Positions 7,906-61,583 of a stretch of DNA of 64,000 nt are shown in pieces (the first letter of the stretch is position 1; every line of letters begins with the position of its first letter). Made by a program: the position numbers and the translations under genes. Origin of the DNA: a virus; IMG/VR virus record IMGVR_UViG_3300020463_000009, positions 1-64,000 of that record; one strand, given 5' to 3'. The notes below the pieces were generated by a model. The model was not told where the DNA came from. It saw only the letters and a program-made list of their open reading frames with translations, and ran no database searches.

Positions 7906-7925
7906 TTGATTAAGGAAAAAGAAAT

Positions 7926-9389
7926 ATGCCAGCAATTATAACAAACAAGTTTAGAATACACAATTCCGAACAATTTTCTGAATCTTTTACAGAGGCTTCA
8001 GGAAATACGTATTATCTAGGAATTGGTAGGTCTCTACCTTATTCTACTGCTACAAGAGCAGATGGTAGAACAGACAATCAAGGTACAGACGTATTACCTA
8101 TTACACCAGCAGATAACTTAAACGCAGAGTCATTTACTTTTGATGACCTTTTAGCAGTTAAAAAAGTTAGTGATACAGATATTTCATTTGTAGCACCAAG
8201 AAGAAACTGGTTGACTGGCACAACTTACGATATTTACAGACACGATTATGGAGAAAGAATTACTGGTACAACTACTTTACAAACAGCTAATAGTGGTGTA
8301 GCTAATTTATTTGACGCAAATTTCTATGCTCTAAACTCATCAAGAAACGTTTATAAATGTTTAGACAATAATAATAATGCAGCTTCAACGGTAGAACCAA
8401 CTGGTACAAACTCATCTACAATTATATCTACTGCTGATGGTTATAAGTGGAAATATATGTACTCACTTTCTGCTTCTCAACAATCAAATTTCTTATCAAC
8501 AGATTTTATGGCAGTTGCAACAAATTCAGATGTAAATTCTCAAGCAGTTGCAGGTGCAATCAATGTAGTAAAAATTAAAACTGCCGGTTCAGGTGGTGCA
8601 GATGGTACACACACAGGTATTGCTATAAGAGGTGATGGCCAAAACGGTGTTGTATCGGTAACGGTAACATCAGGAGCGGTAACAGCGGTAACGGTAACAA
8701 CTCCGGGAACAGGTTATACTTTTGCTACAATTTCAAATGCTCAAATAGTAGCCGCAGGTGCAACAAGTTTAACAGGTGCAGAATTAGATGTAATTATTCC
8801 ACCAAAAGGCGGACACGGATTTAACGCAATTCAAGAATTAGGTGCTTTCTTTGTAATGACAAATACAAGTTTAGAAGGAACAGAATCAGCAAATACTGGT
8901 GACGTTTCAGTTGCTAACGACTTTAGACGAGTATGTTTAATAAGAGACCCAAAATCAGGTGGTTCAGCTGCTTCAGCTGCCACATTAAGAGCAACAAAAG
9001 CAATTAGATTAACAGGTGTATCTGGTACTTTTGCTGTTGATGAAAAAATTACTCAATCATCTACTGGCGCAATAGGTAAAGTAGTTGAATGGGATTCTTC
9101 AAACGCTATATTATATTATATTCAAACAAGACACAATGACGAAGGTGTTGATAGTAATGGTAATCAAACAGCATTTTCAGGAGCAAACGTTGTGACCGGA
9201 TTAAGTGGCGCAAGTGGAACACCAGAGACTTCACATTCGGCAACAACTAACAATGTAGTATTCGTCAGCGGATATTCTGTACCAGAAATTGACCACGATT
9301 CAGGTGATGTTTTGTACGTAGAGAACAGAGCACCAATAACAAGAGCGGCAGACCAGACAGAAAATATCAAGTTGATTATAGAATTTTAA
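7926..9389 (+). CDS. 8: Baseplate wedge protein gp8
   Basis: A 487-residue protein (T4 gp8 is 334). The N-terminal part matches gp8 in order: NKFRIHNSEQF, YYLGIGRSLPY, then SFVAPRRNW around residues 89-97, YKCLDN, and DGYKWKYMYSL. The C-terminus (GDVLYVENRAPITRAADQTE, then NIKLIIEF) is nearly collinear with the end of T4 gp8, which I recall as GEMIYMENRPPI...DQTEEINILFTF. The extra length lies in the middle and includes a GAIGKVVEW beta module related to those in its neighbours. gp8 forms dimers linking the wedge to gp7 and gp10 in T4. Confidence 0.92.
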   Translation: MPAIITNKFRIHNSEQFSESFTEASGNTYYLGIGRSLPYSTATRADGRTDNQGTDVLPITPADNLNAESFTFDDLLAVKKVSDTDISFVAPRRNWLTGTTYDIYRHDYGERITGTTTLQTANSGVANLFDANFYALNSSRNVYKCLDNNNNAASTVEPTGTNSSTIISTADGYKWKYMYSLSASQQSNFLSTDFMAVATNSDVNSQAVAGAINVVKIKTAGSGGADGTHTGIAIRGDGQNGVVSVTVTSGAVTAVTVTTPGTGYTFATISNAQIVAAGATSLTGAELDVIIPPKGGHGFNAIQELGAFFVMTNTSLEGTESANTGDVSVANDFRRVCLIRDPKSGGSAASAATLRATKAIRLTGVSGTFAVDEKITQSSTGAIGKVVEWDSSNAILYYIQTRHNDEGVDSNGNQTAFSGANVVTGLSGASGTPETSHSATTNNVVFVSGYSVPEIDHDSGDVLYVENRAPITRAADQTENIKLIIEF

Positions 9390-18517: not shown

Positions 18518-19001
18518 AGTGAATTTGAAAGACCATTTTGTAAATGCTGTATATGTCAATAATGAAAGAACATTAATAGAAGTTTTTTATACTTCACCAG
18601 ATTTCAAAGAAACTCATAACGCAATCATAGAACACGATACTGAACATCCAGACTTTCAACATTTAATGAAATTTGTAAGTGTAGATGATTTACACGAAAA
18701 TACTTACAATCAAAAAAAATTAGAAAGAAAAGAGTTTGAAGAAGAAGCTATTAAGATTGCTAAAAAATCTGGTCTAGTTTTTGATTACAATAGAATTGAT
18801 ACTAAATTTTTTCCTGCTTTAGTAAAAGCATTATTTGTAGATGAAGAAAATGATGACCACTTATTTGCTTTAAAACTTGCATTATTCGAAGTAGAAAAAA
18901 TTAGAGATACAAAAAACGAAGATTTAAAAGTAGAGTTAAGAAAATCTAAAACAAAACTAGAAGCTTTAGATAAAGCAATTAATATTTTAAGAAGTAATTA
19001 G
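18507..19001 (+). CDS. Hypothetical charged protein
   Basis: A 164-residue acidic/basic-rich protein overlapping the epimerase by 11 bp. Residues 70-90 and 125-160 are strongly helical with Lys/Glu heptads. Its 3' end overlaps the convergent glycosyltransferase gene by 23 bp, so the two transcripts are antisense over the stop codons. No family recognised. Similar proteins occur in T4-like cyanophages next to tail genes, to my recollection, so it may be a structural-module gene and not part of the metabolic cassette. Confidence 0.55.
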   Translation: MLTKVNLKDHFVNAVYVNNERTLIEVFYTSPDFKETHNAIIEHDTEHPDFQHLMKFVSVDDLHENTYNQKKLERKEFEEEAIKIAKKSGLVFDYNRIDTKFFPALVKALFVDEENDDHLFALKLALFEVEKIRDTKNEDLKVELRKSKTKLEALDKAINILRSN

Positions 19002-19551
19002 ACCACCAGCCAGACCAACCTTTTTCCATAAGGTGTTGCATTTGACCAAAAGTAATCATATTTTCTTTAGTAGGTTTATCGTGAATATGGTTTTTAATTG
19101 ATGAACAAAAATGTCTACCATAAGTATAGTATTTAATTTCGTGATAATAAAACTCATCACTACCCTTATTGTATTTCTTTAAGTAATATTCGTCATTTGA
19201 TTTAAACTTATCCCAAATATAAGATACATCACCTGTCCAAGATACGACAGACGAGTTTAAAGGTGTATGGGCTTTCTCTCGCCACCAAGAATCATCTAGT
19301 AATGTAAAATGTTTTCTAACTAATGGTCTTAACTTATCAAATATACATACGTCTAAATCAAAGTATAAATTTTCACCGTCTCTAAACATATCATACATTT
19401 GAAGTTTGTTATACCAATTACCATATAAATCTTTTTCAATGACCTCAAACTTATCATACTTGATACCTGAATAAGTATCAATCATATGTTTTAAATTATC
19501 AACGTGCCATTGAGTAAACTTATCACCAAATCTACAACAAATTATTCTCAT
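18979..19551 (-). CDS. Putative glycosyltransferase (GT-A, DxD)
   Basis: A 190-residue protein with a GT-A type fold pattern: a beta strand at the N-terminus (MRIICCRFGDKF) and an acidic DxD-like motif at Asp65-Leu-Asp67 within LYFDLDVCIF, the site that binds the metal and nucleotide sugar. Several Trp/Tyr-rich segments follow (DDSWWREKAH; GWSGWWSNYF at the end). It resembles small GT8-like or capsule-type transferases encoded by marine phages. It is the last gene of the minus-strand operon and overlaps the upstream gene by 4 bp. Donor and acceptor are unknown. Confidence 0.65.
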   Translation of the reverse strand: MRIICCRFGDKFTQWHVDNLKHMIDTYSGIKYDKFEVIEKDLYGNWYNKLQMYDMFRDGENLYFDLDVCIFDKLRPLVRKHFTLLDDSWWREKAHTPLNSSVVSWTGDVSYIWDKFKSNDEYYLKKYNKGSDEFYYHEIKYYTYGRHFCSSIKNHIHDKPTKENMITFGQMQHLMEKGWSGWWSNYFLKY

Positions 19552-20417
19552 TTTATTTCTGTTATCTTAATGCCTCTATTTCTATGAGAGTTTATTTTAA
19601 ACTCTGCTTTTTCAGGTATGTTATGAGTATTACCATATGGGTCTTTTACTTGACCTTTATCTTTAGTTATGTCAACTATTTTTGCTTTTCTCATTTGTTT
19701 ACCAGTTCTAGGGTGTGTTTCTTGGTCAGTTATTGTAATCTTACTACCATTAGCAGCGCCTAACATTAATTCAGTTTCGTCAGATTCCCAACGAGGTTTA
19801 TCATTTCTAGGATAACCAATACCTAAACCATAACATATTTCTTTGGTACCATTTTTTATGTCATCCATAATACCTAATTTTTTAGGCCAATAATCATCAC
19901 CATTTAAATCATTATGACTTTTATTAGCGCCTGTGGCAAATCCCATTGAGGCAGCTGCTTTCATTGTTAGACCTAAAGATATACCAATACTACAATAGGC
20001 ATTTTGCCATCTGTTTTTATCTGTATTAGATTTTAAAGTACCATCAGCGTGAGAGTTTAATTGACTATTAGGTTCTTTTGCCACCCATACCATATAGATA
20101 CTAGCATTTGATTGTGAGTTTCTCCAGTTTGCTGGAGGATTTCTTCTATGAGTATAACCCCAAGTATATCTTGATATCTCTTGTATTACTTTTCTATCAG
20201 CCGTATAATATACATCAAAATATCCTTCGTGTTGTTTAGTAGGACTATTTGTTGCTATCCATAATAATTCATTAACAATATCATCTACTAAAAGAGGGTT
20301 TAATTTACTCCACTTTTCATAATCCCAATTTCTTTGGCATTTTTGAATTTTATTATATATTTCTCTTTCTTTGTCCCATTCATAAAACATATGCATAATT
20401 TTATTCTCAACGTCCAT
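19548..20417 (-). CDS. Nitroreductase-family flavoprotein with C-terminal extension
   Basis: A 289-residue protein with nitroreductase-family features: TNSPTKQHEGYFDVYYTAD near residues 56-74 (the SPS/TxxNxQPW-like FMN-binding region), a central NAYCSIGISLGLTMKAAASM segment near 139-158 (the family's long dimer helix, with G-F-A-T-G following), and GLGIGYPRN near 198-206. The last 60-70 residues, rich in Lys, Gly and beta strands, are an extension not usual for the family. FMN-dependent oxidoreduction is likely; the substrate is unknown. It abuts the upstream gene with no gap. Confidence 0.65.
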   Translation of the reverse strand: MDVENKIMHMFYEWDKEREIYNKIQKCQRNWDYEKWSKLNPLLVDDIVNELLWIATNSPTKQHEGYFDVYYTADRKVIQEISRYTWGYTHRRNPPANWRNSQSNASIYMVWVAKEPNSQLNSHADGTLKSNTDKNRWQNAYCSIGISLGLTMKAAASMGFATGANKSHNDLNGDDYWPKKLGIMDDIKNGTKEICYGLGIGYPRNDKPRWESDETELMLGAANGSKITITDQETHPRTGKQMRKAKIVDITKDKGQVKDPYGNTHNIPEKAEFKINSHRNRGIKITEIK

Positions 20418-21122
20418 TTAAATATCCTTTATCTTATTATCAGGTCCAGCATAATGTATAATCTTTATATACTTATGTGCCTCACCCATTATTGCATAGT
20501 CTGTTTTAAATTTTTTGCAATATAATTTCTGTAATTCTAAATCTTTTCTAAAATCATTTGATTTTTTGTATAAAATTCTACCTGGTAATTTTTTAACTTT
20601 ATATCTTTCTTTAGCCGTTGAATTAACATAGTTTTGTTCACCATAATATTTTTTATGTACAATACCTTCATTATAATAATAGTTTTGTTTATAGTCTGGA
20701 TTTAGTTCAAAATCTTCCCATATCATTTTTAAAGTACCAGATTTAAATTTATAAAAACCACCGTTCATACCTAATTTATTATCCCACCAAGCGTCATAAG
20801 TTAATAACTCACCATCTTTTACTTTAGCAGTTAATATATCATCAATATTATTAACTATTACCTGGTCAATATCCATAATTATAATATCATCACCTGGTTT
20901 TTGATAACCATATAAAGGACTAAAGAATTTTAATTTATGCCAATGTTTTTTTATATTACTATGATGATTATAAGGTAATACTATATCTGCCTCAACATCC
21001 GTATCACTAATACATACAGATTGAAAAGGCACACTACTATGCTTTCTAATACTATTATAAAAATTAGATACGTAGTCTGGTGTATATAGACCTTTAAAAT
21101 ATACGGTACATATTTTAAGCAT
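20418..21122 (-). CDS. Putative glycosyltransferase (GT-A, DxD)
   Basis: A 234-residue protein starting MLKICTVYFKGLYTPDYVSN. The motif IIIMDIDQVIV places a DxD at Asp84-Ile-Asp86, followed by the usual MNGGFYKFKSG acceptor-side loop near residues 119-129 and a conserved IIHYAGP near the end. These are hallmarks of GT8-like or related retaining GT-A enzymes. It overlaps the next upstream glycosyltransferase by 8 bp. The acceptor may be a virion or surface glycan, which is inference. Confidence 0.7.
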   Translation of the reverse strand: MLKICTVYFKGLYTPDYVSNFYNSIRKHSSVPFQSVCISDTDVEADIVLPYNHHSNIKKHWHKLKFFSPLYGYQKPGDDIIIMDIDQVIVNNIDDILTAKVKDGELLTYDAWWDNKLGMNGGFYKFKSGTLKMIWEDFELNPDYKQNYYYNEGIVHKKYYGEQNYVNSTAKERYKVKKLPGRILYKKSNDFRKDLELQKLYCKKFKTDYAIMGEAHKYIKIIHYAGPDNKIKDI

Positions 21123-21942
21123 TTACATTTCTCCAAACAATATCAAATCTTTTGTTGATAGCGTGTATTAATTTTGTATCTTCAGGTATGAATAAGTTAT
21201 CATAGAAAAAGTAATGCCATTTATCATCAAGCCATTGTACAGATACATCTTTTTCTTTTAACTTAACACTAAACAAAGTTTCATTATCATAACCAAAGTA
21301 ATCTACTATTTTTTTAGGAAACATACTTTTGTCAAATTTTAATTGTGTCATTGTAATCATATCTTGGTCAAATTGATTAAAATACTCTAGTTGAAATAAA
21401 TGAGATTTATCTATACCTATAATACCAGTATTAACTACATCAACCTCTGAGCTAAGACCTCTATGTAATAACATTGCTTGAGCATTGTAATACTTTGAGT
21501 TAGGACTTCTAATTGTTTGAGAAGTTTCAGATATATCTTCTATCTTAGCGACCTTATTATTATTATTTGCAATAGCAATACCTTTAGATAAATCAAATAC
21601 TTCAAAAAAGTTTTCTTTAGTATTAGGCACCACATCAAAATCAATGTATAACATCTGGTCGTACTTTGAAGAAAACTTATAGAGTAAATATATCTTAAAA
21701 AAGTTTATTATGTTGTAAGTTGTTAAGAAAGGATATTTACCTTTCATTTCATCATAATATTCTTTATACTTATTTACTAATACAAAGTCAGCACCAATAC
21801 TATCAGCATATTCTTTTTTACAATCAATAAGTCTTTGATAGTTTTCTTTAAACTCATTTTTTGTATTTAAGTTTGTTTTTTGATTATCAACAAACTCGTT
21901 ATCAGGTACTTCAATGTATATACTATAAATTAATTTTTTCAT
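21115..21942 (-). CDS. Putative glycosyltransferase (GT-A, DxD)
   Basis: A 275-residue protein starting MKKLIYSIYIEVPD. I prefer the ATG at 21942 over a TTG four codons upstream. The motif MLYIDFDVVPN gives a DxD at Asp101-Phe-Asp103, and VVNTGIIGIDKSH around residues 169-181 is the typical sugar-acceptor loop. The gene overlaps the methyltransferase-like gene by 20 bp. It is the third GT-A enzyme of the operon; the three differ in sequence, which suggests different linkages in one oligosaccharide. Confidence 0.7.
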   Translation of the reverse strand: MKKLIYSIYIEVPDNEFVDNQKTNLNTKNEFKENYQRLIDCKKEYADSIGADFVLVNKYKEYYDEMKGKYPFLTTYNIINFFKIYLLYKFSSKYDQMLYIDFDVVPNTKENFFEVFDLSKGIAIANNNNKVAKIEDISETSQTIRSPNSKYYNAQAMLLHRGLSSEVDVVNTGIIGIDKSHLFQLEYFNQFDQDMITMTQLKFDKSMFPKKIVDYFGYDNETLFSVKLKEKDVSVQWLDDKWHYFFYDNLFIPEDTKLIHAINKRFDIVWRNVNA

Positions 21943-22519
21943 ATTTTCCAACAAGAGTAAATCTCAAGCCTCTTTCATCTTCGATTATACCTTTATCTAA
22001 AACTCTTGCATTGTCTGGTAATTGTTTTTGAAACTCATCAATACCACCAACACAATTAGTATGGTCTTTTATACTTCTCATATTATTTGATTGATAGGCA
22101 AAATAGGCATTCGTATCTAGTCTTAATTCTTTCATAGGTCGCATATGTTCGCAAGACGTATTAATAATTAAATTTGCATTTTGTATTCTACCTAATCTAT
22201 CTTCATTCCAAACATCACTTGTAATAAAATCAACATTATCATAATGATTAAATAATCTATGTTTAGCTAAACCAAGAACCTCATCATTTAAATCTATTAA
22301 GGTTATTCTTTTTACTTGTTTAAAAGCAGGTATTAATATACTACCATACCAACCACCAAGTATAACTATTTCACTATCACTATCAACCATATTTAAATCA
22401 TTAACCATTTTAATTAGCATTTCTTTAGATTTAAATTGATTAGGACTAAATGAATCTAAAAGGTCCATATTATGCCTACCTTCTCTCATTATATTTTTAA
22501 ATAATTGTAAATCTATCAT
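21923..22519 (-). CDS. Methyltransferase-like Rossmann protein
   Basis: A 198-residue protein. Residues 51-60 (IVILGGWYGS) resemble motif I of SAM-dependent methyltransferases, with Asp76 (ITLIDLND) as the expected acidic ribose-binding residue and DNVDFITSDVWN near residues 93-104 as the adenine-side motif. A stretch LIINTSCEHM near 116-125 follows as motif IV. The glycine loop is GGWYGS, not GxGxG, so cofactor binding is likely but not certain. It overlaps the small ORF upstream by 4 bp (ATGA). Confidence 0.6.
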   Translation of the reverse strand: MIDLQLFKNIMREGRHNMDLLDSFSPNQFKSKEMLIKMVNDLNMVDSDSEIVILGGWYGSILIPAFKQVKRITLIDLNDEVLGLAKHRLFNHYDNVDFITSDVWNEDRLGRIQNANLIINTSCEHMRPMKELRLDTNAYFAYQSNNMRSIKDHTNCVGGIDEFQKQLPDNARVLDKGIIEDERGLRFTLVGKYEKINL

Positions 22520-22614
22520 TTTAATTTCCCCATAACTATTAGTCTTGCAATTTTAGGTGAATAATTGTTAATACAAATATATTCTACCAATCTTTTTCTA
22601 AACATAAAAAGCAT
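22516..22614 (-). CDS. Small basic 32-aa peptide in operon junction
   Basis: A 32-residue ORF (starts MLFMFRKRLVEYIC, ends VMGKLK) that fills exactly the gap between the nitroreductase and the methyltransferase-like gene. Its start overlaps the upstream stop as TAATG and its stop overlaps the next start as ATGA. Double coupling makes translation plausible, at least to carry ribosomes across the junction. Basic and slightly hydrophobic; no family recognised. Confidence 0.4.
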   Translation of the reverse strand: MLFMFRKRLVEYICINNYSPKIARLIVMGKLK

Positions 22615-23303
22615 TACTTCTTCCATTTAATAATCTCCTCATACTCTGGTTTAATATCTTCTTTTTCTCTTCCGTAAGACCTTAACATTTCATATCTATA
22701 AAGTTCACTATATCCTGCTGACATTAAAACTATTGGTCTATAATCAGCGTCTTTTAATCCTATGTCGTGCCATTTTTCTATCTCTCTAAAAAAACAAGAA
22801 GTATATGATACATCTATATTTTGTTCAAGTAAATAACTTGATAAATTTTGTATAAACATTCCTACTTCAACTGCCGAAGTATCAATAAAATTGTGTACTC
22901 TACTTGGCCAGGCTTGGTCAAAAAACATTCCTTCTTCAACTTGTTTTTCATAAAATTTATTAGGATTTCTAGGTTGAGCGTGAATACAAAATAAGTAAGG
23001 ATTAGATTTTATATGTTCATAGTAGGGGTTTGGTTTACCACTCTCTGTTCTTGTTGCCTCACCTCTTTGCATTGCTCTTTTCTCGGCGTCTTTATGATTT
23101 TCTGCAACCATTTTCCAAACTTTTATTTTTTCTTCTTTATGTTCAGGACCATAAACAATTACTTTCCAAGGCATAGCATTATTTTTAGATGGTGATGTTT
23201 TCCAGGCCTGCCATAATGCAAACTCTATTTTATCTTTTGGTGGCACATCATCTTTATAAAATCTAACGTGATGTCTTTTTTCTAATAAATCAAACGTACT
23301 CAT
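22614..23303 (-). CDS. Nitroreductase-family FMN oxidoreductase
   Basis: A 229-residue protein. Arg10-His-His-Val-Arg14 (EKRHHVRFY) is the N-terminal RxxR FMN-phosphate contact of nitroreductases, TSPSKNNAMPWKVIVYG near residues 36-52 is the conserved SPSxxNxQPW segment, and AVEVGMFIQNLSSYLLEQ near 144-161 is the dimer/FMN helix. Length is normal for the family. It overlaps the carbamoyltransferase by 4 bp. The reaction is unknown; in natural-product operons such enzymes oxidise or reduce pathway intermediates. Confidence 0.8.
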   Translation of the reverse strand: MSTFDLLEKRHHVRFYKDDVPPKDKIEFALWQAWKTSPSKNNAMPWKVIVYGPEHKEEKIKVWKMVAENHKDAEKRAMQRGEATRTESGKPNPYYEHIKSNPYLFCIHAQPRNPNKFYEKQVEEGMFFDQAWPSRVHNFIDTSAVEVGMFIQNLSSYLLEQNIDVSYTSCFFREIEKWHDIGLKDADYRPIVLMSAGYSELYRYEMLRSYGREKEDIKPEYEEIIKWKK

Positions 23304-24787
23304 TTATACATAACCTTATCATTAATTACTAATATATCTAATGCAGTTTTTTTAAAAGTTTTTAAAGCGTGTTCAGGTGAATCTACAATAGGTTCTTGAC
23401 AATTAAAACTTGTATTTAATAACATAGGTACACCTGTCTCTTTGTAAAATGCATTTATAATATCGTAAAACTTTTGATTAAACTTTCTATTGACCGTTTG
23501 TATTCTTGCAGTATTATCAACGTGAGTAATACCAGGTACTTCAGCTGATTTAACTTTACATATACGAGACATAAAAGGACTTGGTAATCTTGTATCAAAA
23601 TAATCTTGATAATGTTCTTCTAATACTGCTGGTGCAAATGGTCTAAAATCTTCTCTATTTTTAATTGTACTATTAATAATATTCTTAATATTAGGATTTC
23701 TAGGGTCTGCTAATATACTTCTATTACCTAATGCACGATTACCACTTTCTGCTCTATCTTGAAACCAACCAACTATTTTACCACTAGCGATTTCTTTTGC
23801 AATCTTTTCATAGTCAGCGTATATAAAACCAGGAAAAGAATAATTAGAACCAGCAAAAGTATCTGTTTTATGTACTTCATCATTTAAATTATAACTTGCG
23901 TGTTGATAAACACCTAATGCTTGGCCTTCATCACCTACAGCAGGTGGTACATATACGTTTTCATAATGATTTAAAAACTCTTCATTCATATAACCATTGT
24001 ATGCAACACCACCAGCAATACAAAGATTTTCGCAAGTTTTAAGTGGATAGATATGCTCTTTTATTTTGTCTAAAGTAAATTTTTGTAGAGTATGTGCTAA
24101 GTCTTCTTTACCATACTTTTCTATATTAATCAGATTGTGTATATCATACTTCTTCTCTCGGATATCGCCGGAGATTATCGTTTCAAACACATCATAGTAG
24201 TATTGATTAAAACTACCATAGCCGACTAACCCCATCAGTTTACTTGCGCCTAATGAACCAAATCCAGTCAGTTTAGCCATTTGATTCCATAACCACCCTA
24301 TTGGTAACTCTTTTGATAGGTCTTTTATGTTTGTATCTTTATCAACAAATATACATCTAAATTTAGCACCTATTCCGTCAATGGCAAGTATATCTGAAAA
24401 CTCAAAGTCAGAATTTATCAAAGCATATGTGGCGTGAGCTTGGTGGTGGTCACAATAGTAAATATCATCTTTGAACACATAGTCAAATAATTTAGTTGGT
24501 ACAAAATTAAGAAACTCTTTATCAATAATTTCTTTTATCATTCTAATACCACCTAGAGTATAAGAAAATGCTAACACACCATCTGTCTTCTTAAAATATT
24601 CATTTACAAATTCATTGTTTAGTTTATAATCATTTGTATTTAACTTATCATTATCGTGGTCATATGCTTCTACGTGATAAGGTAGATTATGTTTAAATCT
24701 AGTATATCTTTCCATTTGTTTATGTAATTTGCCATCATAAACATTATGGTCGTGTAAGTTTAAAGCTACAGCAGTTATTTTATGCAT
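23300..24787 (-). CDS. NodU/CmcH-type carbamoyltransferase
   Basis: A 495-residue enzyme of the carbamoyltransferase family (NodU, CmcH, TobZ), which transfers a carbamoyl group from carbamoyl phosphate through a carbamoyl-adenylate. Seen: an N-terminal LHDHNVYDG (residues 11-19), the metal-binding DHHQAHATYA (His114, His115, His118), IDGIGAK near 134-140, CIAGGVAYNGYMNEE in the Kae1-like domain, and the YrdC-side signature RAESGNRALGNRSILADPR. It is somewhat shorter than NodU (about 560-600). The acceptor could be a sugar or a hydroxymethylated base. It overlaps both neighbours. Confidence 0.92.
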   Translation of the reverse strand: MHKITAVALNLHDHNVYDGKLHKQMERYTRFKHNLPYHVEAYDHDNDKLNTNDYKLNNEFVNEYFKKTDGVLAFSYTLGGIRMIKEIIDKEFLNFVPTKLFDYVFKDDIYYCDHHQAHATYALINSDFEFSDILAIDGIGAKFRCIFVDKDTNIKDLSKELPIGWLWNQMAKLTGFGSLGASKLMGLVGYGSFNQYYYDVFETIISGDIREKKYDIHNLINIEKYGKEDLAHTLQKFTLDKIKEHIYPLKTCENLCIAGGVAYNGYMNEEFLNHYENVYVPPAVGDEGQALGVYQHASYNLNDEVHKTDTFAGSNYSFPGFIYADYEKIAKEIASGKIVGWFQDRAESGNRALGNRSILADPRNPNIKNIINSTIKNREDFRPFAPAVLEEHYQDYFDTRLPSPFMSRICKVKSAEVPGITHVDNTARIQTVNRKFNQKFYDIINAFYKETGVPMLLNTSFNCQEPIVDSPEHALKTFKKTALDILVINDKVMYK

Positions 24788-25604
24788 TTAACACCTTCGC
24801 ATATTTTCTAAAAGGAAAATGACCTTTTGGTGGTACCCATTCGGTACAAGTTTTACAATAGTTCTCATACTTAAATAATTGCCAGTTCATCATCTTATCT
24901 ATATTCTCTTGCGTTAAGTCAAACGTTTTAGATAGTTCTTTATTATTAGCAAACTTTTTACTACAATGTACAATATGTCTCTTTTCAAAATCTATTACAG
25001 GCACCTGTGGAAAAGCTGCACACATTTTCCTATCTATCTCTTCAGCCTGTATAACATCTGTAAATTCTGGTGACCTGCCGTTAAATGCTTTCCACATAGT
25101 ATTCTTATGATTTAATTTTTCTAATACTTCAGGATATTTGTCTTTGTATTTAAAGTAATTTGGTGTTCTAACAACAACGTTAAAATTATTCTTATCATTT
25201 TCTGATACATAATCAAAATTACCTAGTTTTTTAACCTCATCTTCATACCAATCTAATATATTATGTTCAACATATAATATATCTTTATCTTCTAATATAT
25301 GAGGATATCTTTTTCTAATAAATGAGTTTGATAATACTGAACATATAAAATTAGGATACTTTTTAATTTCATTAATAACCTCATCTAAATTTTTAATTAA
25401 ACCTGGCTCACCACCTAATAAGTTAATTCTTACTTTATAATTTTTTAAATACTCTAAACACATTTTCAAAAAATCCATATCAACCGTTAAGTTTCTCATT
25501 TCTAAAGTATAACTTGTACAATAATGACAATCTTTATTACACGACATAGATAGAAAGAAATCTATCGCTCTATAATTATCTTGTATTTCTTTAAATGTTT
25601 TCAT
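24780..25604 (-). CDS. Radical SAM enzyme with C-terminal Cys motif
   Basis: A 274-residue protein with the radical SAM cluster motif Cys22-x3-Cys26-x2-Cys29 (MSCNKDCHYC) and the glycine-rich SAM-binding NLLGGEP at about residues 57-63. Towards the C-terminus, CAAFPQ, HCSKK and YCKTCTEW give further Cys residues that could bind an auxiliary cluster as in SPASM-type enzymes, although spacing is shorter. The substrate is unknown. It overlaps the neighbouring genes by 8 and 14 bp, so it is an integral member of the operon. Confidence 0.85.
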   Translation of the reverse strand: MKTFKEIQDNYRAIDFFLSMSCNKDCHYCTSYTLEMRNLTVDMDFLKMCLEYLKNYKVRINLLGGEPGLIKNLDEVINEIKKYPNFICSVLSNSFIRKRYPHILEDKDILYVEHNILDWYEDEVKKLGNFDYVSENDKNNFNVVVRTPNYFKYKDKYPEVLEKLNHKNTMWKAFNGRSPEFTDVIQAEEIDRKMCAAFPQVPVIDFEKRHIVHCSKKFANNKELSKTFDLTQENIDKMMNWQLFKYENYCKTCTEWVPPKGHFPFRKYAKVLNA

Positions 25605-25896
25605 ATATTGTTTTAAAAAAGAAAGTATTAAATGCTATTAATAATTTTTCTTTTGGTTTATCTGTTAAGTATGAAGTTATATCAATCCATTCTGGCATTT
25701 GATAGGTCTTCTCAATTAAATAGTGGTAGATATCTTCTACCTCTTTATCAACTAAACTTTCATCAAACATATCATCACCAACAACTTTTCGCATAGTTTG
25801 ACAAAGTGCAATCGGACACTTATCAGTTATATCAATCATATTACCTTTTTTGTCAATATAACTAAATTGAGTAAAAGATTTATTGTGTTCTATCAT
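25591..25896 (-). CDS. Hypothetical small protein between radical SAM and aminotransferase
   Basis: A 101-residue acidic protein, starting MIEHNKSFTQFSYIDKKG. It has two Cys (CPIALC, residues 28-33) and otherwise a helical pattern. No membrane segment. It overlaps the aminotransferase by 4 bp and the radical SAM gene by 14 bp. Size and position would suit a carrier or partner protein of the radical SAM enzyme, but there is no phosphopantetheine Ser motif or peptide leader motif, so this remains a guess. Confidence 0.55.
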   Translation of the reverse strand: MIEHNKSFTQFSYIDKKGNMIDITDKCPIALCQTMRKVVGDDMFDESLVDKEVEDIYHYLIEKTYQMPEWIDITSYLTDKPKEKLLIAFNTFFFKTIYENI

Positions 25897-26936
25897 ATTA
25901 ATAGTAAGATAGTATTAATTACTTTATCTAGTTCCTCTTTTTTCATAAACGGATGTAAAGGTAATGTTAATATTGAATCACAAACTATTCGTGTAATAAA
26001 ATCATCATCTTTTCTATGTTCTATATTTTCATACATTATATTATCTGAAATAGGTTTATCATAATGTATTTGACCTAATTTAGCCTTTACTCTGTCTCTT
26101 ACTTCTTTGTTTTGAAATCTAACTACATATTTGTGGTAGTTATGATTTAGATTATCAGGATTACTTTGTACGGTTACATATTCTTTTAATTTATCATCAT
26201 AGTATCTGGCATTTGCCTGTCTTCTTTGAATATAATCACCTAGTTTTTTTAATCTAAAATTAATAAATTCAGCATTAAATAATAACATTTTAGAATTGTA
26301 ACCTAGTTGTTTATGTTCGCCGTGTTTTCTTAATCTTTTAAATATCTCTGTATTACCATTTGTTAGTATCGCACCACCACCAGCAATACCAGCCACAACT
26401 TTATTTGCATTAAAACTTAACGTACTAATATCACCGATTGTTCCTGCTAAAGTACCATTTAAACTAGAACCAAGAGATTGGCAAGCGTCTTCTATAAAAT
26501 GAATATTTTTCTCTTGACAAAATTGTTTTATCTTGCTAGTATCAGACATATTACCAAATAAGTGAGGATAAATTATGGCTTTTACTTTGTCAGAATACAT
26601 CCTTTTAATACTATCTAAAGACATATGATAATCAGGCATATTAATATCACAAAATACTGGTGTCGCACCTACCATTGATATACAAGACGCAGTTGATATC
26701 CAAGAAAAGTTTGTTGTTAATACTTCATCACCTTTACCAACACCTATTTTTAATAATGAAAAAAATAATGCGTCTGTACCACTATTACAAACAACAACAT
26801 TTCTACCAAACATATCAGATAAACTATCTTCAAGAAACTCGATATTACCTTCTTGATTATCTTGTCTCATAACTTTATCAAATAGTTTTAAATATTCGCC
26901 AGTATAAATTTCGTATTCTTTATCCCAACCGTGCAT
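25893..26936 (-). CDS. DegT/DnrJ/EryC1/StrS PLP aminotransferase
   Basis: A 347-residue sugar aminotransferase-family protein. Seen: NSGTDALFFSLLKIGVGKGD (residues 51-70, PLP-phosphate region), ATPVFCDI (91-98), IEDACQSLGS with Asp150, and the PLP lysine Lys179 in STLSFNANKVVAGIAGGG. Length is normal to slightly short. The family makes 3- or 4-amino-deoxy sugars on nucleotide donors. It overlaps the SGNH-like gene by 17 bp. It supports a sugar-tailoring role for the operon. Confidence 0.92.
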   Translation of the reverse strand: MHGWDKEYEIYTGEYLKLFDKVMRQDNQEGNIEFLEDSLSDMFGRNVVVCNSGTDALFFSLLKIGVGKGDEVLTTNFSWISTASCISMVGATPVFCDINMPDYHMSLDSIKRMYSDKVKAIIYPHLFGNMSDTSKIKQFCQEKNIHFIEDACQSLGSSLNGTLAGTIGDISTLSFNANKVVAGIAGGGAILTNGNTEIFKRLRKHGEHKQLGYNSKMLLFNAEFINFRLKKLGDYIQRRQANARYYDDKLKEYVTVQSNPDNLNHNYHKYVVRFQNKEVRDRVKAKLGQIHYDKPISDNIMYENIEHRKDDDFITRIVCDSILTLPLHPFMKKEELDKVINTILLLI

Positions 26937-27606
26937 ATAACTCCTCCGCTATTACTTGATGACCTTTTTCATTAGGGTGGCCATCTTCTCTTGATATGTA
27001 ATCTTCAGGTTTTTTCATAAAGTCTTGCATAGAAAAACCACCAAGTTCTTTACTAGGAAAACCTATAAAATTATCATCAATTAAATTATATAAGGGATTT
27101 TTTTGCATTTCAAAATAATGTTCTTGCCTTGTTAAAAGTTTACCTCTAGCTTTAGGCCAGACTTCGGGGTTATCAGTCCACCTTGCAGTTTCATATGAAT
27201 CAATTATTTGTACTTGTTTATATTTTAATCCTAATGATTTACATAATTGTTGAAAACTATATTGAAACATTAAAGTTCTACCTATAAAATAATGATTGTC
27301 GCCTTTTTCGTCCCAAATGTCATTATTCCAATGAGACTTATCTAAATAATAATAATCTCTACGTGCAGCTCTTGACCAACCTGCTAACACTAGACCTATA
27401 TTTTTTGCGTTTATATTTTTGACAATACTTGTATAAATGTATTCTTGACCGGCACCTGATTGACCTACGTTTATACAATTCATATCTAACTTTTTAGCTA
27501 AGAGTTGAGGCCATTTTGGCCAAGAACAATCTAACTCTGGATGATGAGCAGATTGATAATTTTCTGTCGTATAACTACAACCACTAACTAATAATATTTT
27601 TTTCAT
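26920..27606 (-). CDS. SGNH/GDSL-like hydrolase
   Basis: A 228-residue protein with SGNH-hydrolase blocks: block I GCSYT (Ser11), an Asn/Gly region CINVGQSGAGQEY near residues 44-56, and block V Asp208-Gly-His210 (DGHPNEKGH). The Ser-Asp-His triad is therefore present in order. Such enzymes add or remove acyl groups on sugars or lipids. A central Trp-rich portion (ETARWTDNPEVWPKA) is unlike typical GDSL esterases. It overlaps both neighbours and belongs to the same operon. Confidence 0.75.
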   Translation of the reverse strand: MKKILLVSGCSYTTENYQSAHHPELDCSWPKWPQLLAKKLDMNCINVGQSGAGQEYIYTSIVKNINAKNIGLVLAGWSRAARRDYYYLDKSHWNNDIWDEKGDNHYFIGRTLMFQYSFQQLCKSLGLKYKQVQIIDSYETARWTDNPEVWPKARGKLLTRQEHYFEMQKNPLYNLIDDNFIGFPSKELGGFSMQDFMKKPEDYISREDGHPNEKGHQVIAEELYARLG

Positions 27607-28480
27607 TTATAGTCTCAATCAATTTTACTAATATTTTTGCATTATCTGAATACATCTTTTTTGTAGGCACAGGTCGTTTCATATAAACAGGACCGCCATC
27701 TTTTATATTTTTATCTCTTAAATATTCTATATTTTTACCTAGCCATTTACATTCTTGTATAAGTCTTGGCGCTGGGTCATAATAATTCTTTGTATAAACA
27801 TATGTGTTAAAAAGACCTAATAAATTATGAACAGGCGCAATTATATTATTGTAGTCTATTATAGTATAATCCTCGTCATATGTCAATATTCCGTGTGATG
27901 TAAAGCACCTAGGACACTCTTTTATCCATCTATCCACCTCTTTATAATACACGTCATTTGTGCCTAAAAATAGATACTCAAATTGTACGTCATTTTTTAC
28001 TGGTTTATACTCTTCAAAATTAATCATTTTCTCATATTGAGTACCAACACCATTAGGGTAAACATCATAATCGCATAAGTCATAAACTTCTTTAGGTTTA
28101 AAATATTCTAGTGCAATCGGATATTCTTTTACGTGATTTTCAGAATATACAGATATCAGCTTATTGTTAAACAATAGATGACCAGTCATTAATTGGTCAG
28201 TAGAATATTCGTCTCTACTTTTCCATAACAAAGTTAACATACTTCTACCTAATATAAAAGTAATATCATTTGTTTCTGGTGTATAGAAATCAAATATTAT
28301 ATTAGTACAAGTTTTGTACTTTTCTGTTATTGCGTCTATGTAATGTTTTTTTGAAAAGTTATAATGAGTGATTATTACTAATTGAGCTTCAATCCCTATC
28401 GAGTTTAAATAACAACAATGCTCATAACTATAACAAAGCAATCCATCACCAGGTTTACTGGTACATACTATATTAATCAT
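27584..28480 (-). CDS. Putative glycosyltransferase, first gene of minus operon
   Basis: A 298-residue protein. The N-terminus (INIVCTSKPGDGLLCYSYEH) and the C-terminal block PRLIQECKWLGKNIEY (about residues 248-263) look like a GT-B-type transferase. No DxD is obvious, consistent with GT-B. The start lies at 28480, 5 bp from the minus-strand late promoter at 28486-28493, with no ribosome-binding site between them, so the transcript may be leaderless. It overlaps the SGNH-like gene by 23 bp. Confidence 0.55.
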   Translation of the reverse strand: MINIVCTSKPGDGLLCYSYEHCCYLNSIGIEAQLVIITHYNFSKKHYIDAITEKYKTCTNIIFDFYTPETNDITFILGRSMLTLLWKSRDEYSTDQLMTGHLLFNNKLISVYSENHVKEYPIALEYFKPKEVYDLCDYDVYPNGVGTQYEKMINFEEYKPVKNDVQFEYLFLGTNDVYYKEVDRWIKECPRCFTSHGILTYDEDYTIIDYNNIIAPVHNLLGLFNTYVYTKNYYDPAPRLIQECKWLGKNIEYLRDKNIKDGGPVYMKRPVPTKKMYSDNAKILVKLIETINEKNIIS

Positions 28481-28485
28481 ACGGA

Positions 28486-28493
28486 TATTTATA
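28486..28493 (-). promoter_or_regulatory. Late promoter driving the minus-strand operon
   Basis: TATTTATA on the plus strand, that is TATAAATA read leftward. It is the only such site upstream of the 13-gene minus-strand operon and shares two bases with the rightward promoter at 28492-28499; together the two sites make the exact 14-bp palindrome TATTTATATAAATA. Confidence 0.65.
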
Positions 28494-28499
28494 TAAATA
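28492..28499 (+). promoter_or_regulatory. Late promoter driving the plus-strand oxygenase operon
   Basis: Exact TATAAATA, overlapping its leftward twin by two bases. The first gene begins at 28529 after an AAAGGTGATGAA ribosome-binding sequence. Confidence 0.75.
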
Positions 28500-28528
28500 G
28501 GAGGAACATATATTTTAAAGGTGATGAA

Positions 28529-29146
28529 ATGAATTATAATAATTTACTGACTTTTGGTGATGTTATAGAATTGAGATTAAATTGTAATGTCTCTAAGCTT
28601 CTGTATAATACAAAACAATATGAATGGAAGCGATATAACCCCAGAAAAGATATTCCTAGATACGGCTTAAGTGTTACCAGTTTAGACGGTAGTTTAAACG
28701 GCATAGATTTAGATTCTATTGCAGAATACAATAAAGAGAATGGTACATCATATAACGAAAGTTCATTTAAAACTTTTACAGACGTATATAAGAATTGTTA
28801 TGAAACAAGAAAACTAGTAGAGCCCTTTGAGCCTTGGTTATGGCGAACACATTATTTAAATTTTAAAAGAGGTGGATTTTTTCCACCACATAGAGATATG
28901 AGACACGTAGGTGAACAAGAGTCTTTTAGAATATTAGTGCCTTTAAAATGTTGTAATCCACCAGGTATGTTTTTTATGTATGACGGTAAACCTTTACATT
29001 TTAATATGGGTACAGCATACTTTGTAAACACAAATAAAATGCATAGTATATTTTCGTATGAAGATAATGCTTATATGATGGTAATGAATGTAGAATGTAA
29101 TGAAGAATCTTTAAAAAAAGTAGGTGAATTAATCAGATGGAAATAA
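28529..29146 (+). CDS. 2OG-Fe(II) oxygenase-like protein
   Basis: A 205-residue protein. I start it at 28529, after AAAGGTGATGAA and downstream of the late promoter; a longer reading from 28418 would cross the promoter. The iron-binding facial triad is His121-x-Asp123 (PPHRDMRH) and His172 (NKMHSIFS), with FRILVPL between them as the core strand. This is the pattern of small aspartyl/asparaginyl-hydroxylase-like or prolyl-4-hydroxylase-like oxygenases. The substrate is unknown. It overlaps the next gene by 10 bp. Confidence 0.75.
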   Translation: MNYNNLLTFGDVIELRLNCNVSKLLYNTKQYEWKRYNPRKDIPRYGLSVTSLDGSLNGIDLDSIAEYNKENGTSYNESSFKTFTDVYKNCYETRKLVEPFEPWLWRTHYLNFKRGGFFPPHRDMRHVGEQESFRILVPLKCCNPPGMFFMYDGKPLHFNMGTAYFVNTNKMHSIFSYEDNAYMMVMNVECNEESLKKVGELIRWK

Positions 29147-29838
29147 CTAGAGAAAAAGTATTTACAGATTTAGTATGTGTTGCTAATATAGGTCAAGTGA
29201 GTCCTGAAGAAGAATTAAAATTAGCAGAGTCTTTAGGTAAAGTTCAAAAGCCAGAGAACGAAAGACAATTAGAATTACATAAACAATTTAAAGGAGAATT
29301 ACCTGGTATAGTTCACGTTACCGAAGGTGGTTTATTTGGTCATAAAAAACTTTTAGATTGGCACGCCAATAAACCTAGCGACCCTAATAGAGCTTCGATA
29401 GTTTGGATTTATGCAGTTAAAGGTAGTGAGGGTAGTATCACTAGTTGGATTGATAATAAGAAAGCATATGAAGATTTACCAGATGATATAAAAGCACATT
29501 GTCATAATGTAAAATTTACCTGTGGTTTTAAAAGAGGTGGTTATACAGACGACCCTACTTTTAAAGAACATCATAATAAAGATAAAGAATATAAATTAAT
29601 CTATATAAATGAATATGGTCAAAAAGGATTATTCTTTCCTTTTTTACAAATTATGGATGGAATACCAAAGGCATTATACGATTACTTAAAGAATCATATT
29701 TTAAAAGATAAATATAGATATGACCATCATTGGAAAGATGGCGATTTAGTTGTTAGTGAACAATGGTTAACAATACACAAAAGACACGCCTTTGAAAAGA
29801 TGAATGAAAGGCTAATGCATAGAATAGCAATATGGTAG
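29137..29838 (+). CDS. TauD/TfdA-like oxygenase
   Basis: A 233-residue protein resembling the TauD/TfdA family of 2OG-Fe(II) dioxygenases. LDWHANKPSDPNRASIVWIY near residues 73-92 is the strand carrying the proximal ligand; here it reads His76-x-Asn78, where most members have His-x-Asp. The distal His is probably His214 in WLTIHKRHAF, followed by the terminal Arg-rich RLMHRIAIW. The Asn may weaken iron binding or mark a different reaction (halogenase-like members lack the acidic ligand, though typically as Ala or Gly). It overlaps the desaturase gene by 7 bp. Confidence 0.75.
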   Translation: MEITREKVFTDLVCVANIGQVSPEEELKLAESLGKVQKPENERQLELHKQFKGELPGIVHVTEGGLFGHKKLLDWHANKPSDPNRASIVWIYAVKGSEGSITSWIDNKKAYEDLPDDIKAHCHNVKFTCGFKRGGYTDDPTFKEHHNKDKEYKLIYINEYGQKGLFFPFLQIMDGIPKALYDYLKNHILKDKYRYDHHWKDGDLVVSEQWLTIHKRHAFEKMNERLMHRIAIW

Positions 29839-30464
29839 AAACATTAATTTTAGGAACAATCTGGTATCAAATAATAGCAATATTTGGCCTATCAATAGGA
29901 TTACATAGATACTTTACTCATAGACAAAATTTTAAAATGTCTCCTATGTTAGAAAATATAATATTATATTTAATTGTATTAACAGGTGCTAAATCACCAT
30001 TAGGTTGGGCAGCTGCTCATAGAGTTCATCATCAACATTCTGATACTGAAAAAGACCCACACTCTCCTAAACATAAAGGTTTTTGGTATGTTCTTTTAAA
30101 TAGATGGATGTTTGAATATCCTAATATTAAAAGAAGTCTAGTAAAAGATTTATTGAAAAATCCTAGAGTTATGTTCTTTCATAGAAACTATAATAAGATA
30201 CACTTAATTAGTGCTGTTTTATCTTTATTAATTAGTTTTAAATTTTTTATTGGTTTTATTGTAATGCCTTTTGTATTGAGTTATATATTTTATGGTTTGT
30301 TTAATACATTAGGTCATAAGAATGGTAAACCAGTAACCAATCATATCATAAATTTATTTGCAGCTGGTGAAGGATATCACGATACACACCACGAAAATTG
30401 GAAGAAAATAAGATTAGGTAAGTATGACTTATCAGGATTGATAATTGAGAAAGTATTAAGATGA
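29832..30464 (+). CDS. Membrane fatty-acid desaturase (delta-9-like)
   Basis: A 210-residue integral-membrane di-iron desaturase. All three His boxes are present: His25-x4-His30 (HRYFTH), His63-x2-His66-His67 (HRVHH), and His183-x2-His186-His187 (HDTHH). Hydrophobic segments lie near residues 5-23, 42-60 and 122-160. Full-length acyl-CoA/acyl-lipid desaturases are about 270-330 residues; this compact form lacks some terminal sequence but keeps the metal ligands. It would introduce a double bond into host fatty acids and so change membrane fluidity. It overlaps the neighbours by 7 and 4 bp. Confidence 0.9.
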   Translation: MVETLILGTIWYQIIAIFGLSIGLHRYFTHRQNFKMSPMLENIILYLIVLTGAKSPLGWAAAHRVHHQHSDTEKDPHSPKHKGFWYVLLNRWMFEYPNIKRSLVKDLLKNPRVMFFHRNYNKIHLISAVLSLLISFKFFIGFIVMPFVLSYIFYGLFNTLGHKNGKPVTNHIINLFAAGEGYHDTHHENWKKIRLGKYDLSGLIIEKVLR

Positions 30465-31063
30465 AGAATAGAAATGATTTACCTAATTATAAAAAAATAG
30501 GTGTAAAAGTTGATACAGGTAAAATACTTAAAATTTTAGAAGATAATAAACATAAACTTATTAAGTACAGAGATAATTTAAATGTTAAATGTGCTACGCC
30601 ATTTTTAAATGAATTATATGAACAAATACCTATTACAGAATTAACAGAGGGTAGTGATTACACTTTACCTTTAGCTGGTCATAGAGACGTTAAATATGAT
30701 GAAAGAAATTATACAACTTTAATAGAATGTTTGAGAGGTACATATATTGAAGAAGTAATGAATATGTTTAAATCAAAACCTACAAGAGCAAGATTTATAA
30801 TTAAGAAACCTGGTGCTCATATTTTACCTCATATGGATTATGATACGACTTATAGTGTGAGATATTTTATTCCCTTAAAAACAAACGAATGGTCGTTTAC
30901 AGCAGTTAAGAGAAAGAATGAAGAACCAGAATTATTAAGTATGAAAGCAGATGGTTCAGTTTACTTTGTTAATCAAGGTTGGACACACTCTGCTTGGAAT
31001 TTTGGTAAAGAAGATTGTATTAGATTAATAGTTGCAGTAAATGGACAAACAGATTTACATTAA
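30461..31063 (+). CDS. 2OG-Fe(II) oxygenase, Asp/Asn hydroxylase-like
   Basis: A 200-residue protein with His124-x-Asp126 (LPHMDYD), His176 (WTHSAWN) and Arg188 (CIRLIVAV), which are the two His, one Asp and the 2-oxoglutarate-binding Arg of the cupin-fold dioxygenases related to aspartyl/asparaginyl beta-hydroxylase. VRYFIPLK and GSVYFVNQG are the core strands around the site. It is distinct in sequence from the oxygenase at 28529. It overlaps the desaturase by 4 bp and the next gene by 23 bp. Confidence 0.8.
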   Translation: MKNRNDLPNYKKIGVKVDTGKILKILEDNKHKLIKYRDNLNVKCATPFLNELYEQIPITELTEGSDYTLPLAGHRDVKYDERNYTTLIECLRGTYIEEVMNMFKSKPTRARFIIKKPGAHILPHMDYDTTYSVRYFIPLKTNEWSFTAVKRKNEEPELLSMKADGSVYFVNQGWTHSAWNFGKEDCIRLIVAVNGQTDLH

Positions 31064-31604
31064 CGATATTATTGAAGATAAAGATAAGTTAATTAAACTA
31101 TCGAAAGAAGCTTCAATAGATTCACCACATAACTTTCACGATTTTGAAAAAAGAATACCAGACTATTTAAATTATCACGTTGTAGAATTAGATGATGAAG
31201 TTATTGCAATGGCAGGTATGTTTCAAAGTAAATTTTGGCCATCTGATTATGTAAGAGTATTAGATAGATGTTATTACTTTAAGAAAGCTAGAAGTAGCAC
31301 ATTATCATTTTATAATGAAAAAGACTTAAAGGCAACAGCTTCAAATTATCTATTGCCAATTCATTTAGAAATTGCTATATCTAAACACTTAACACCTTTC
31401 TTCTCAATTGCAGGTATTCATAGAAGACCAGCTATGGAAAGAATGATAGATATATGGAATAAAAAGAATAGTCTAAAACTAAAAGTATTAGATAAAATGT
31501 ATTTCACCTGTAATCACAAAGTATCAGACAACACAAACGATATGTGTTGGCAGAATATAGCTATACCTGAAGAGTACGATAGATTTGATTTGCCTACTCG
31601 GTAG
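31041..31604 (+). CDS. Hypothetical protein, last gene of oxygenase operon
   Basis: A 187-residue protein. YHVVELDDEVIAMAGMFQS near residues 45-63 resembles the first strands of GNAT N-acyltransferases, and FSIAGIHRRPAMERMIDIW near 121-139 could be the later helix, but I do not see the Q/RxxGxG/A acetyl-CoA loop, so the family is unproven. It overlaps the upstream oxygenase by 23 bp and the convergent gene at 31594 by 11 bp. Confidence 0.55.
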   Translation: MDKQIYINDIIEDKDKLIKLSKEASIDSPHNFHDFEKRIPDYLNYHVVELDDEVIAMAGMFQSKFWPSDYVRVLDRCYYFKKARSSTLSFYNEKDLKATASNYLLPIHLEIAISKHLTPFFSIAGIHRRPAMERMIDIWNKKNSLKLKVLDKMYFTCNHKVSDNTNDMCWQNIAIPEEYDRFDLPTR

Positions 31605-31933: not shown

Positions 31934-31941
31934 TATTTATA
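31934..31941 (-). promoter_or_regulatory. Minus-strand late promoter (back-to-back pair)
   Basis: TATTTATA on the plus strand, i.e. TATAAATA leftward, one base from the rightward TATAAATA at 31943-31950. The gene at 31911 starts 22 bp downstream. Confidence 0.7.
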
Positions 31942-31942
31942 A

Positions 31943-31950
31943 TATAAATA
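31943..31950 (+). promoter_or_regulatory. Plus-strand late promoter (back-to-back pair)
   Basis: Exact TATAAATA followed by AAGGAGAAATTG and the start at 31974. With its leftward twin it forms a 17-bp palindrome with a single central base. Confidence 0.75.
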
Positions 31951-31973: not shown

Positions 31974-32201
31974 ATGATTAACATAGATGGCAAGACATAT
32001 GACGAAGCGAAATTTAGTCCTGAATTACAAAATTACCTTGTGGTAAGACAAGAAATTCAGGTTAATGCTACAAGACACAGACTTGAGCTTGAAAAAATAG
32101 AAGTTTTGACGAATCATTATAACGCTAAAATAGTAGAATTAATTAAAAAAGAAGCACCAGAGACAGAAATTAAAGAAGTCAAAGAAACAGAGAAAAAATA
32201 G
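31974..32201 (+). CDS. Small charged protein, hypothetical
   Basis: A 75-residue protein starting MINIDGKTYDEAKF, with an AAGGAGAAATTG ribosome-binding site. Residues 15-60 are helical, and the tail is a Glu/Lys-rich run ending in KEVKETEKK. It resembles small coiled-coil accessory proteins in fibre modules. The stop codon is immediately followed by the start of the next gene, so they are coupled. Confidence 0.65.
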   Translation: MINIDGKTYDEAKFSPELQNYLVVRQEIQVNATRHRLELEKIEVLTNHYNAKIVELIKKEAPETEIKEVKETEKK

Positions 32202-32534
32202 ATGGCCGCTATAGCTAATTTAACCATAGACCAAGGCGCAACTTTTACCTCGGATGTGACCGTAAAAGACGCAAATGGTAATGCTTTTGACCTGACAGGT
32301 TATACTGCTAGGGCAAAATTAGCGAAAGGCTATCAATCCACAAAAACAAGGCAAGATTTCACTGCCACAATTGCTAATGCAACAGGAGGCGTAGTTACCT
32401 TATCGTTAACAGCGACACAAACTACTGCTCTTGATGATACAAGATACGTATATGATTTAGAGATTGTTACCGGTGATGTAGTGACCAGAGTAATTGAGGG
32501 ATTAATCTCTGTACGTCCACAGGTTACTACTTAA
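32202..32534 (+). CDS. Beta-sandwich structural protein, hypothetical
   Basis: A 110-residue protein. IDQGATFTSDVTVKDANGNAF (residues 9-29) then DLTGYTARAKL is a motif shared by small Ig-like or BppU-N-like domains of phage fibre and baseplate-attachment proteins. The rest is alternating beta strands ending ISVRPQVTT. It begins directly after the preceding stop. Likely a connector or adaptor for the fibre array downstream; this is inference. Confidence 0.7.
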   Translation: MAAIANLTIDQGATFTSDVTVKDANGNAFDLTGYTARAKLAKGYQSTKTRQDFTATIANATGGVVTLSLTATQTTALDDTRYVYDLEIVTGDVVTRVIEGLISVRPQVTT

Positions 32535-60774: not shown

Positions 60775-61583
60775 TGGCATATGTAGTAGTACCAGGTTCA
60801 AACGATACGTTAGAATACGATAACGCAGCCACAGCTTCGTTATATACTGATTCTGCCGTAGGTGCTAACTCGGTTATTTCTAGTGGTATAAGAACATATA
60901 CTAAACCAGGAACTAGTGATACGGTACAAACATATATTAGAACTAGAATGAAAGGTGCAATAAACCTTCAAACTCGTTCAGACGATTTTAATAGTTGGTC
61001 AAATAAAGGTCAAATTACTTTAACAACTGGACAAGAAGACCCTAATGGTAATACAACTGCTACAAATATAAAAGATGATGGTGATGGTAATGAAAACAAT
61101 AGACTTGTTTGGGAAAATGGAATACTACCAACTGGTTCTACAACTTACACACAATCTTGTTATGTAAAAAGTAATCAAAATAATTTATTTCAATTATCTT
61201 TTAGAGGTGCTTCAACTAACGTATCCTCAGCAGTTTTTAATTTAGATACTGGCGTTGTAGCACACACATATAATTCAGGTAATAATACACTAGGCCAAAC
61301 ATCAATACACGCTTTAGACAATGGTTGGTTTAGATGTAGATTAACTGCTACTTTAGGAACTTTAGGTGATGGAAGAGTTTCATTTGGACCTATTGATGAA
61401 ACTGGTAATTTATCAAATTTTGGTTATGCAAGATATGTAGGAAATGGAAATACAGGTTGTGATATATGGGGTTATATGGTAAGTGAGGGTGCAAATTTAA
61501 GAAAATATATTAGAACAACTGCTTCAGCTTCATCAACAATTGAAACTGGTGAGTTGTCAAAAACTTATTATGATGGTCAATAA
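60774..61583 (+). CDS. Beta-sandwich/carbohydrate-binding-like structural protein
   Basis: A 269-residue protein. Residues 65-225 look like a jelly-roll module similar to carbohydrate-binding domains on phage spikes: NLQTRSDDFNSWSNKGQITL (near 64-83), TYTQSCYVKSNQNNLFQLSF (near 121-140), and DNGWFRCRLTATLGTLGDGR (near 178-197). The N-terminus (YVVVPGSNDTLEYDNAATAS) is separate. It stands between prohead core genes and the protease, an unusual place for a glycan-binding protein, and may be a head decoration or fibre. Confidence 0.65.
   Translation: MAYVVVPGSNDTLEYDNAATASLYTDSAVGANSVISSGIRTYTKPGTSDTVQTYIRTRMKGAINLQTRSDDFNSWSNKGQITLTTGQEDPNGNTTATNIKDDGDGNENNRLVWENGILPTGSTTYTQSCYVKSNQNNLFQLSFRGASTNVSSAVFNLDTGVVAHTYNSGNNTLGQTSIHALDNGWFRCRLTATLGTLGDGRVSFGPIDETGNLSNFGYARYVGNGNTGCDIWGYMVSEGANLRKYIRTTASASSTIETGELSKTYYDGQ

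Follow-up and report, generated by a model that had tools for sequence, protein, structure and literature searches.

A perfect 14-bp palindrome, TATTTATATAAATA, lies between two divergent sets of accessory genes in this marine T4-like phage, and it raises the question of whether one short site can serve as a late promoter in both directions. The window (the whole stretch of DNA analyzed, 64,000 nucleotides) is part of a 109,063-base record whose closest annotated relative is the Pelagibacter phage Mosig EXVC030M (Kyanoviridae), with 73% identity over the region. The palindrome is very probably a compact bidirectional late promoter for the two gene sets.

A palindrome between divergent gene sets

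The palindrome is composed of two TATAAATA boxes on opposite strands, pointing apart and sharing two bases, just as the original prediction described it, and the match to the T4-type late box (TATAAATA or NATAAATA) is exact on both strands. This is the only exact copy of the 14-mer in the window and in the whole record, for which a Markov model of the record gives an expectation of 0.015 copies. TATAAATA alone is near chance frequency in the window (17 seen, 14.3 expected) and thus not enriched, so the case rests on position and conservation rather than on count. A host sigma-70 promoter at the palindrome was considered and rejected, as a consensus scan of positions 28300-28700 is empty at this site.

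The genes flanking the palindrome are divergently transcribed, and Pfam matches in both arms are mostly metabolic or transferase-like (Table 1). The leftward arm, which includes GDSL-like, DegT aminotransferase, radical SAM, carbamoyltransferase, nitroreductase, and GT8-like genes among others, contains 12 ORFs rather than the 13 genes first proposed, and its first gene has no match in Pfam or PHROG. The rightward arm does contain the five genes proposed; the Mosig homologue of the first is annotated Asp_Arg_Hydrox. Mechanical first-ATG calling gives upstream in-frame ATGs that overlap the promoter in the window and in related locus L007, but these were rejected and the starts set by homologues. 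The only further sense-oriented NATAAATA in either arm is GATAAATA at 29707, within a rightward gene.

The record (G000) also codes for a gp55 late sigma (68879-69388, 79% identical to Mosig_00029) and a gp45 sliding clamp (81585-82244, 81% identical to that of Mosig). With these genes present and the layout kept in relatives, the proposal of back-to-back late boxes is supported. A 72-aa gp33 co-activator query, for which there was no positive control, found nothing in the 109-kb record, which is incomplete.

Table 1. Features of the palindromic junction and its two arms (window coordinates)
Feature	Position	Strand	Remark
14-bp palindrome TATTTATATAAATA, overlapping late boxes	28486..28499	.	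Intact at 12 distinct divergent junctions collected independently of the motif
Leftward late box TATAAATA	28486..28493	-	Exact match
Rightward late box TATAAATA	28492..28499	+	Exact match
Spacer TCCGT (5 nt), box to left ATG	28481..28485	-	No Shine-Dalgarno; length kept while letters vary
Predicted leftward +1, A of ATG	28480	-	From the T4 box at -13 to -6 and the -1 pyrimidine
First leftward gene, 298 aa	27584..28480	-	N terminus conserved in homologues
Leftward arm, 12 ORFs	18979..28480	-	ORF list and Pfam matches
Predicted rightward +1	28505	+	From box geometry; 25 bp from leftward +1
Predicted 24-nt leader with Shine-Dalgarno AAAGGTGATG	28505..28528	+	
First rightward gene, 205 aa	28529..29146	+	Start set by homologues (MSYN..)
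Rightward arm, 5 ORFs	28529..31604	+	TauD-like dioxygenase, FA desaturase, Asp/Asn hydroxylase, others
Second back-to-back late box pair, 1-bp gap	31934..31950	.	Shine-Dalgarno leaders on both arms

Start codon spacing and predicted leaderless messages

The original prediction overlooked the position of the left ATG, which lies 5 nt from its box and foretells a leaderless message. The T4 late box spans -13 to -6 (PMC1524935), and with a 5-nt spacing the +1 is therefore expected on the A of the ATG; only the spacer separates box and ATG, and there is no Shine-Dalgarno sequence between the predicted +1 and the start codon. The right side is unlike the left, with its ATG 29 nt from the box and AAAGGTGATG upstream. 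The base at -1 of the predicted rightward +1 is a G rather than the usual pyrimidine, which counts against the bidirectional reading.

The same spacing recurs elsewhere. At the loci fetched by protein similarity, which are related and not independent, TATAAATA-to-ATG distances peak at exactly 5 nt (28 sites, with none at 3, 4, 6, or 7 nt), and a second peak spans 16 to 33 nt. In ten T4-like genomes, NATAAATA is found 5 nt from an ATG at 40 sites, compared with 2, 1, 1, and 1 at 3, 4, 6, and 7 nt, respectively. Of these 40, 39 have a pyrimidine just upstream of the ATG (P = 1.7e-12 relative to the pre-ATG background), and among the leadered promoters of the same genomes 78% have a purine at position 6 past the box. 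The 5-nt sites are spread among HTVC008M, G002, and G006 (nine each), Mosig (six), Melnitz (three), P-HM2 (two), S-PM2 and the window's own record (one each), and there are none in T4 or AG-345-L05. G006 is a 202-kb contig in which gp23 matches just two distant fragments (32168-32287 and 74728-74802), reflecting either a split gene or assembly errors. The palindrome most likely belongs to a widespread group whose messages, for one arm or for both, are predicted to start right at the initial base of the ATG.

The bidirectional promoter can be pictured as follows. Host RNA polymerase carrying the phage gp55-type late sigma, recruited by the sliding clamp, would bind this AT-rich stretch shared by the two arms facing one way or the other, never both at once. 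Leftward transcripts would begin with the A of the first start codon and be leaderless, and rightward transcripts, initiated about 25 bp away, would carry a 24-nt leader that includes a Shine-Dalgarno sequence. The two boxes, their exact spacing and conservation, and the gp55 and gp45 genes can be read directly from the DNA; recognition by this gp55, the start sites, leaderless translation, and mutual exclusion are what we infer. Clamp orientation on the DNA could also bias the direction taken.

Conservation at related junctions and alternative readings

Related loci were collected by similarity with the first protein of each arm as the query, without use of the motif, and Mosig was added. The 14-mer is intact at 12 distinct divergent junctions (the window, L001 [Mosig], L004, L007, L010, L011, L013, L014, L016, L020, L021, and L022), and two more have variant double boxes, with a 3-bp gap in L015 and a face-to-face arrangement in L044, where the boxes form CATATAAATATTTATATG together with both start codons. 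In Mosig the 14-mer is at 60971-60984, for which the predicted starts are 60990 (plus strand, the A of the ATG of Mosig_00082) and about 60965 (minus strand). The first genes beside the conserved 14-mer vary and include a 291- to 298-aa family, nitroreductase-like families, and a 263-aa family. The left ATG keeps its 5-nt distance from the box at the palindromic junctions of the relatives too, with varying letters in between.

L016 and L020 share 99% identity across 700 bp to one side, and L014 and L054 share 98%. Within each of these pairs, one contig has a single whole gene, gained or lost, immediately next to the palindrome that the other lacks, and whichever gene comes first keeps the 5-nt spacing. 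It is possible that the palindrome at these loci is a site of gene exchange by short homology. These observations bear on an alternative in which just the rightward late promoter works, the left box being an AT-rich by-product and the left arm using other promoters, such as a sigma-70 site within its first gene. A perfect sigma-70 consensus, TTGACA-17-TATAAT, does lie inside the first leftward gene (27886-27858, minus strand), where it could drive early expression of later left-arm genes, and the lack of a Shine-Dalgarno sequence upstream of the left ATG also fits this alternative. However, replacement of the gene and changes in the spacer letters both leave the left box in place, exactly 5 nt from the start codon, and the 5-nt class is found genome-wide, making a one-sided promoter unlikely.

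The distance between the boxes is less constant than their spacing from the genes. The same gene pair is found with boxes overlapping by 4 bp in L288, L299, and L338 and by 2 bp in L107, and another pair has a 3-bp gap in L015 and a 2-bp overlap in L006 to L012. Both 5-nt spacings are kept through these shifts of register, which indicates that the conserved element is the two boxes, not the palindrome as such. What stays constant is two boxes with 5 nt between each one and its start codon; the palindrome follows from their overlap. An operator for a dimeric regulator, rather than a double promoter, would account for the perfect two-fold symmetry at a divergent junction, but a dimer site needs a fixed half-site spacing, and homologous junctions shift the inter-box distance while keeping the boxes and their 5-nt spacings, with the boxes of L044 even facing each other; this explanation was rejected and is very improbable. 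A chance arrangement in a 33% GC genome, which the near-chance frequency of TATAAATA would permit, is scarcely credible for a 14-mer so rarely expected that is placed precisely between divergent genes and is found again at related junctions collected without the motif.

The gene pair can exist without the palindrome, the arrangement being replaced in one sister clade. L029, L033, and L048 have the same gene pair without the palindrome and carry a degenerate late box (TCTAAATA or ACTAAATA, the former in L029 and L033) 5 nt from one ATG. In L029 and L033, the two sequences checked, a sigma-70 promoter, TTGAC(G/A)-17-TATAAT, lies 5 nt from the other ATG. The -10 box of this promoter is the part 5 nt from the ATG; the promoter lies upstream of the MKNVNIV gene (about 7924-7992), which is possibly expressed early from a leaderless message. 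The original prediction named absence of the motif from close relatives that keep the two operons as evidence against it, and on this point the outcome is divided: it is absent from these three loci but intact at the 12 junctions above.

Two-sided junctions in viral contigs and known systems

Two-sided junctions are common in viral contigs. A pattern scan of 2.9 million contigs for CAT-N-palindrome-N-ATG with set spacings found the overlap-2 palindrome with 5-nt spacing on both sides in 33 stretches, compared with none at 4/4 and four at 6/6. These 33 represent 20 distinct junctions, of which 16 are flanked by ORFs left and right; the preference for a -1 pyrimidine is weaker here (23/32). The 12-bp core with a 4-bp overlap (TATTTATAAATA) is found at 5/5 spacing in 113 stretches and 74 distinct junctions, 63 of them with ORFs on both sides, and a pyrimidine is at -1 in 122 of 126 cases. 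The face-to-face 18-mer is present at 35 distinct junctions (18 with both ORFs), for which the -1 base is fixed by the search pattern. Several long two-sided contigs code for a T4-type portal or gp23, and many others are uninformative fragments. In L102 (1-3014), a two-sided palindrome is located between glycosyltransferase and tail tube genes with gp23 nearby, showing that the layout serves structural genes too.

We lean toward the broader view that marine T4-like phages widely use overlapping two-way late promoters with leaderless mRNAs on both sides and intergenic regions of ∼22 to 24 bp (down to 12 bp when face to face), and that these sites act as docking points for accessory gene exchange with start-codon precision. 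If so, many late genes in some of the most abundant phages of the ocean would lack both a leader and a Shine-Dalgarno sequence, which bears on how late messages are translated in these phages. Prediction of late promoters in pelagimyophages was reported to be unsuccessful (PMC7029224), and such a layout may help to explain this. It would also let such genes be annotated simply by looking for a late box followed after 5 nt by ATG, suggest how polymerase could be physically limited to one of two gene sets at a time, and point to a place where accessory cassettes might swap genes exactly.

Overlap of late boxes has a precedent in T4 itself, where a pair between genes 26 and 51 was reportedly described by Scarlato et al. 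in 1989 (Virology), so the earlier statement that no such T4-like overlap is known does not hold. In the T4 genome (NC_000866), TATTTATAAATA at 116450-116461 likewise consists of a pair of overlapping TATAAATA boxes that point apart toward divergent genes, but the boxes share 4 bp (a 12-bp core) rather than 2 bp. The ATGs are 21 and 17 nt from the T4 boxes, and with leaders on both sides, neither side is leaderless. The 14-mer is absent from T4, KVP40, HTVC008M, S-PM2, P-SSM2, P-HM2, P-TIM68, Melnitz-2, and two single-cell marine viruses.

The NATAAATA late promoters of cyanophages and other T4-like phages have the same box and the same late sigma family but are described as single and upstream of late genes (PMC2984593, PMC1524935), whereas the promoters here include a two-sided form and a class with 5-nt spacing that is predicted to be leaderless. 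In the literature searched, which covered few subscription papers, we found no description of a +1 on the start codon, of leaderless late messages in T4-like phages, or of the two-sided form.

The sigma-70 bidirectional promoters of bacteria described by Warman, Grainger, and co-workers offer a second comparison. These have a pseudo-symmetric -10 region that RNA polymerase binds either way (PMC12825309, PMC10268837), with closely placed starts on opposite strands, a layout like the one predicted for the phage site. Polymerase bound in one direction blocks the other (PMC12825309), and by analogy mutual exclusion of the two phage arms is sterically likely and the arms may compete. In Escherichia coli, competition is seen just at high activity (PMC12825309), so the original suggestion that the arms stay balanced is not established. 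The bacterial promoters depend on sigma-70 and have -10 hexamers in common, 18 bp being the most frequent distance between starts, whereas here two full gp55-type boxes overlap. As in the bacterial case, elements on opposite strands overlap, in this instance by the 2 bp common to the boxes, and the 25-bp separation of starts predicted from box geometry compares with the 7 to 25 bp by which bacterial bidirectional promoters are defined (PMC10268837).
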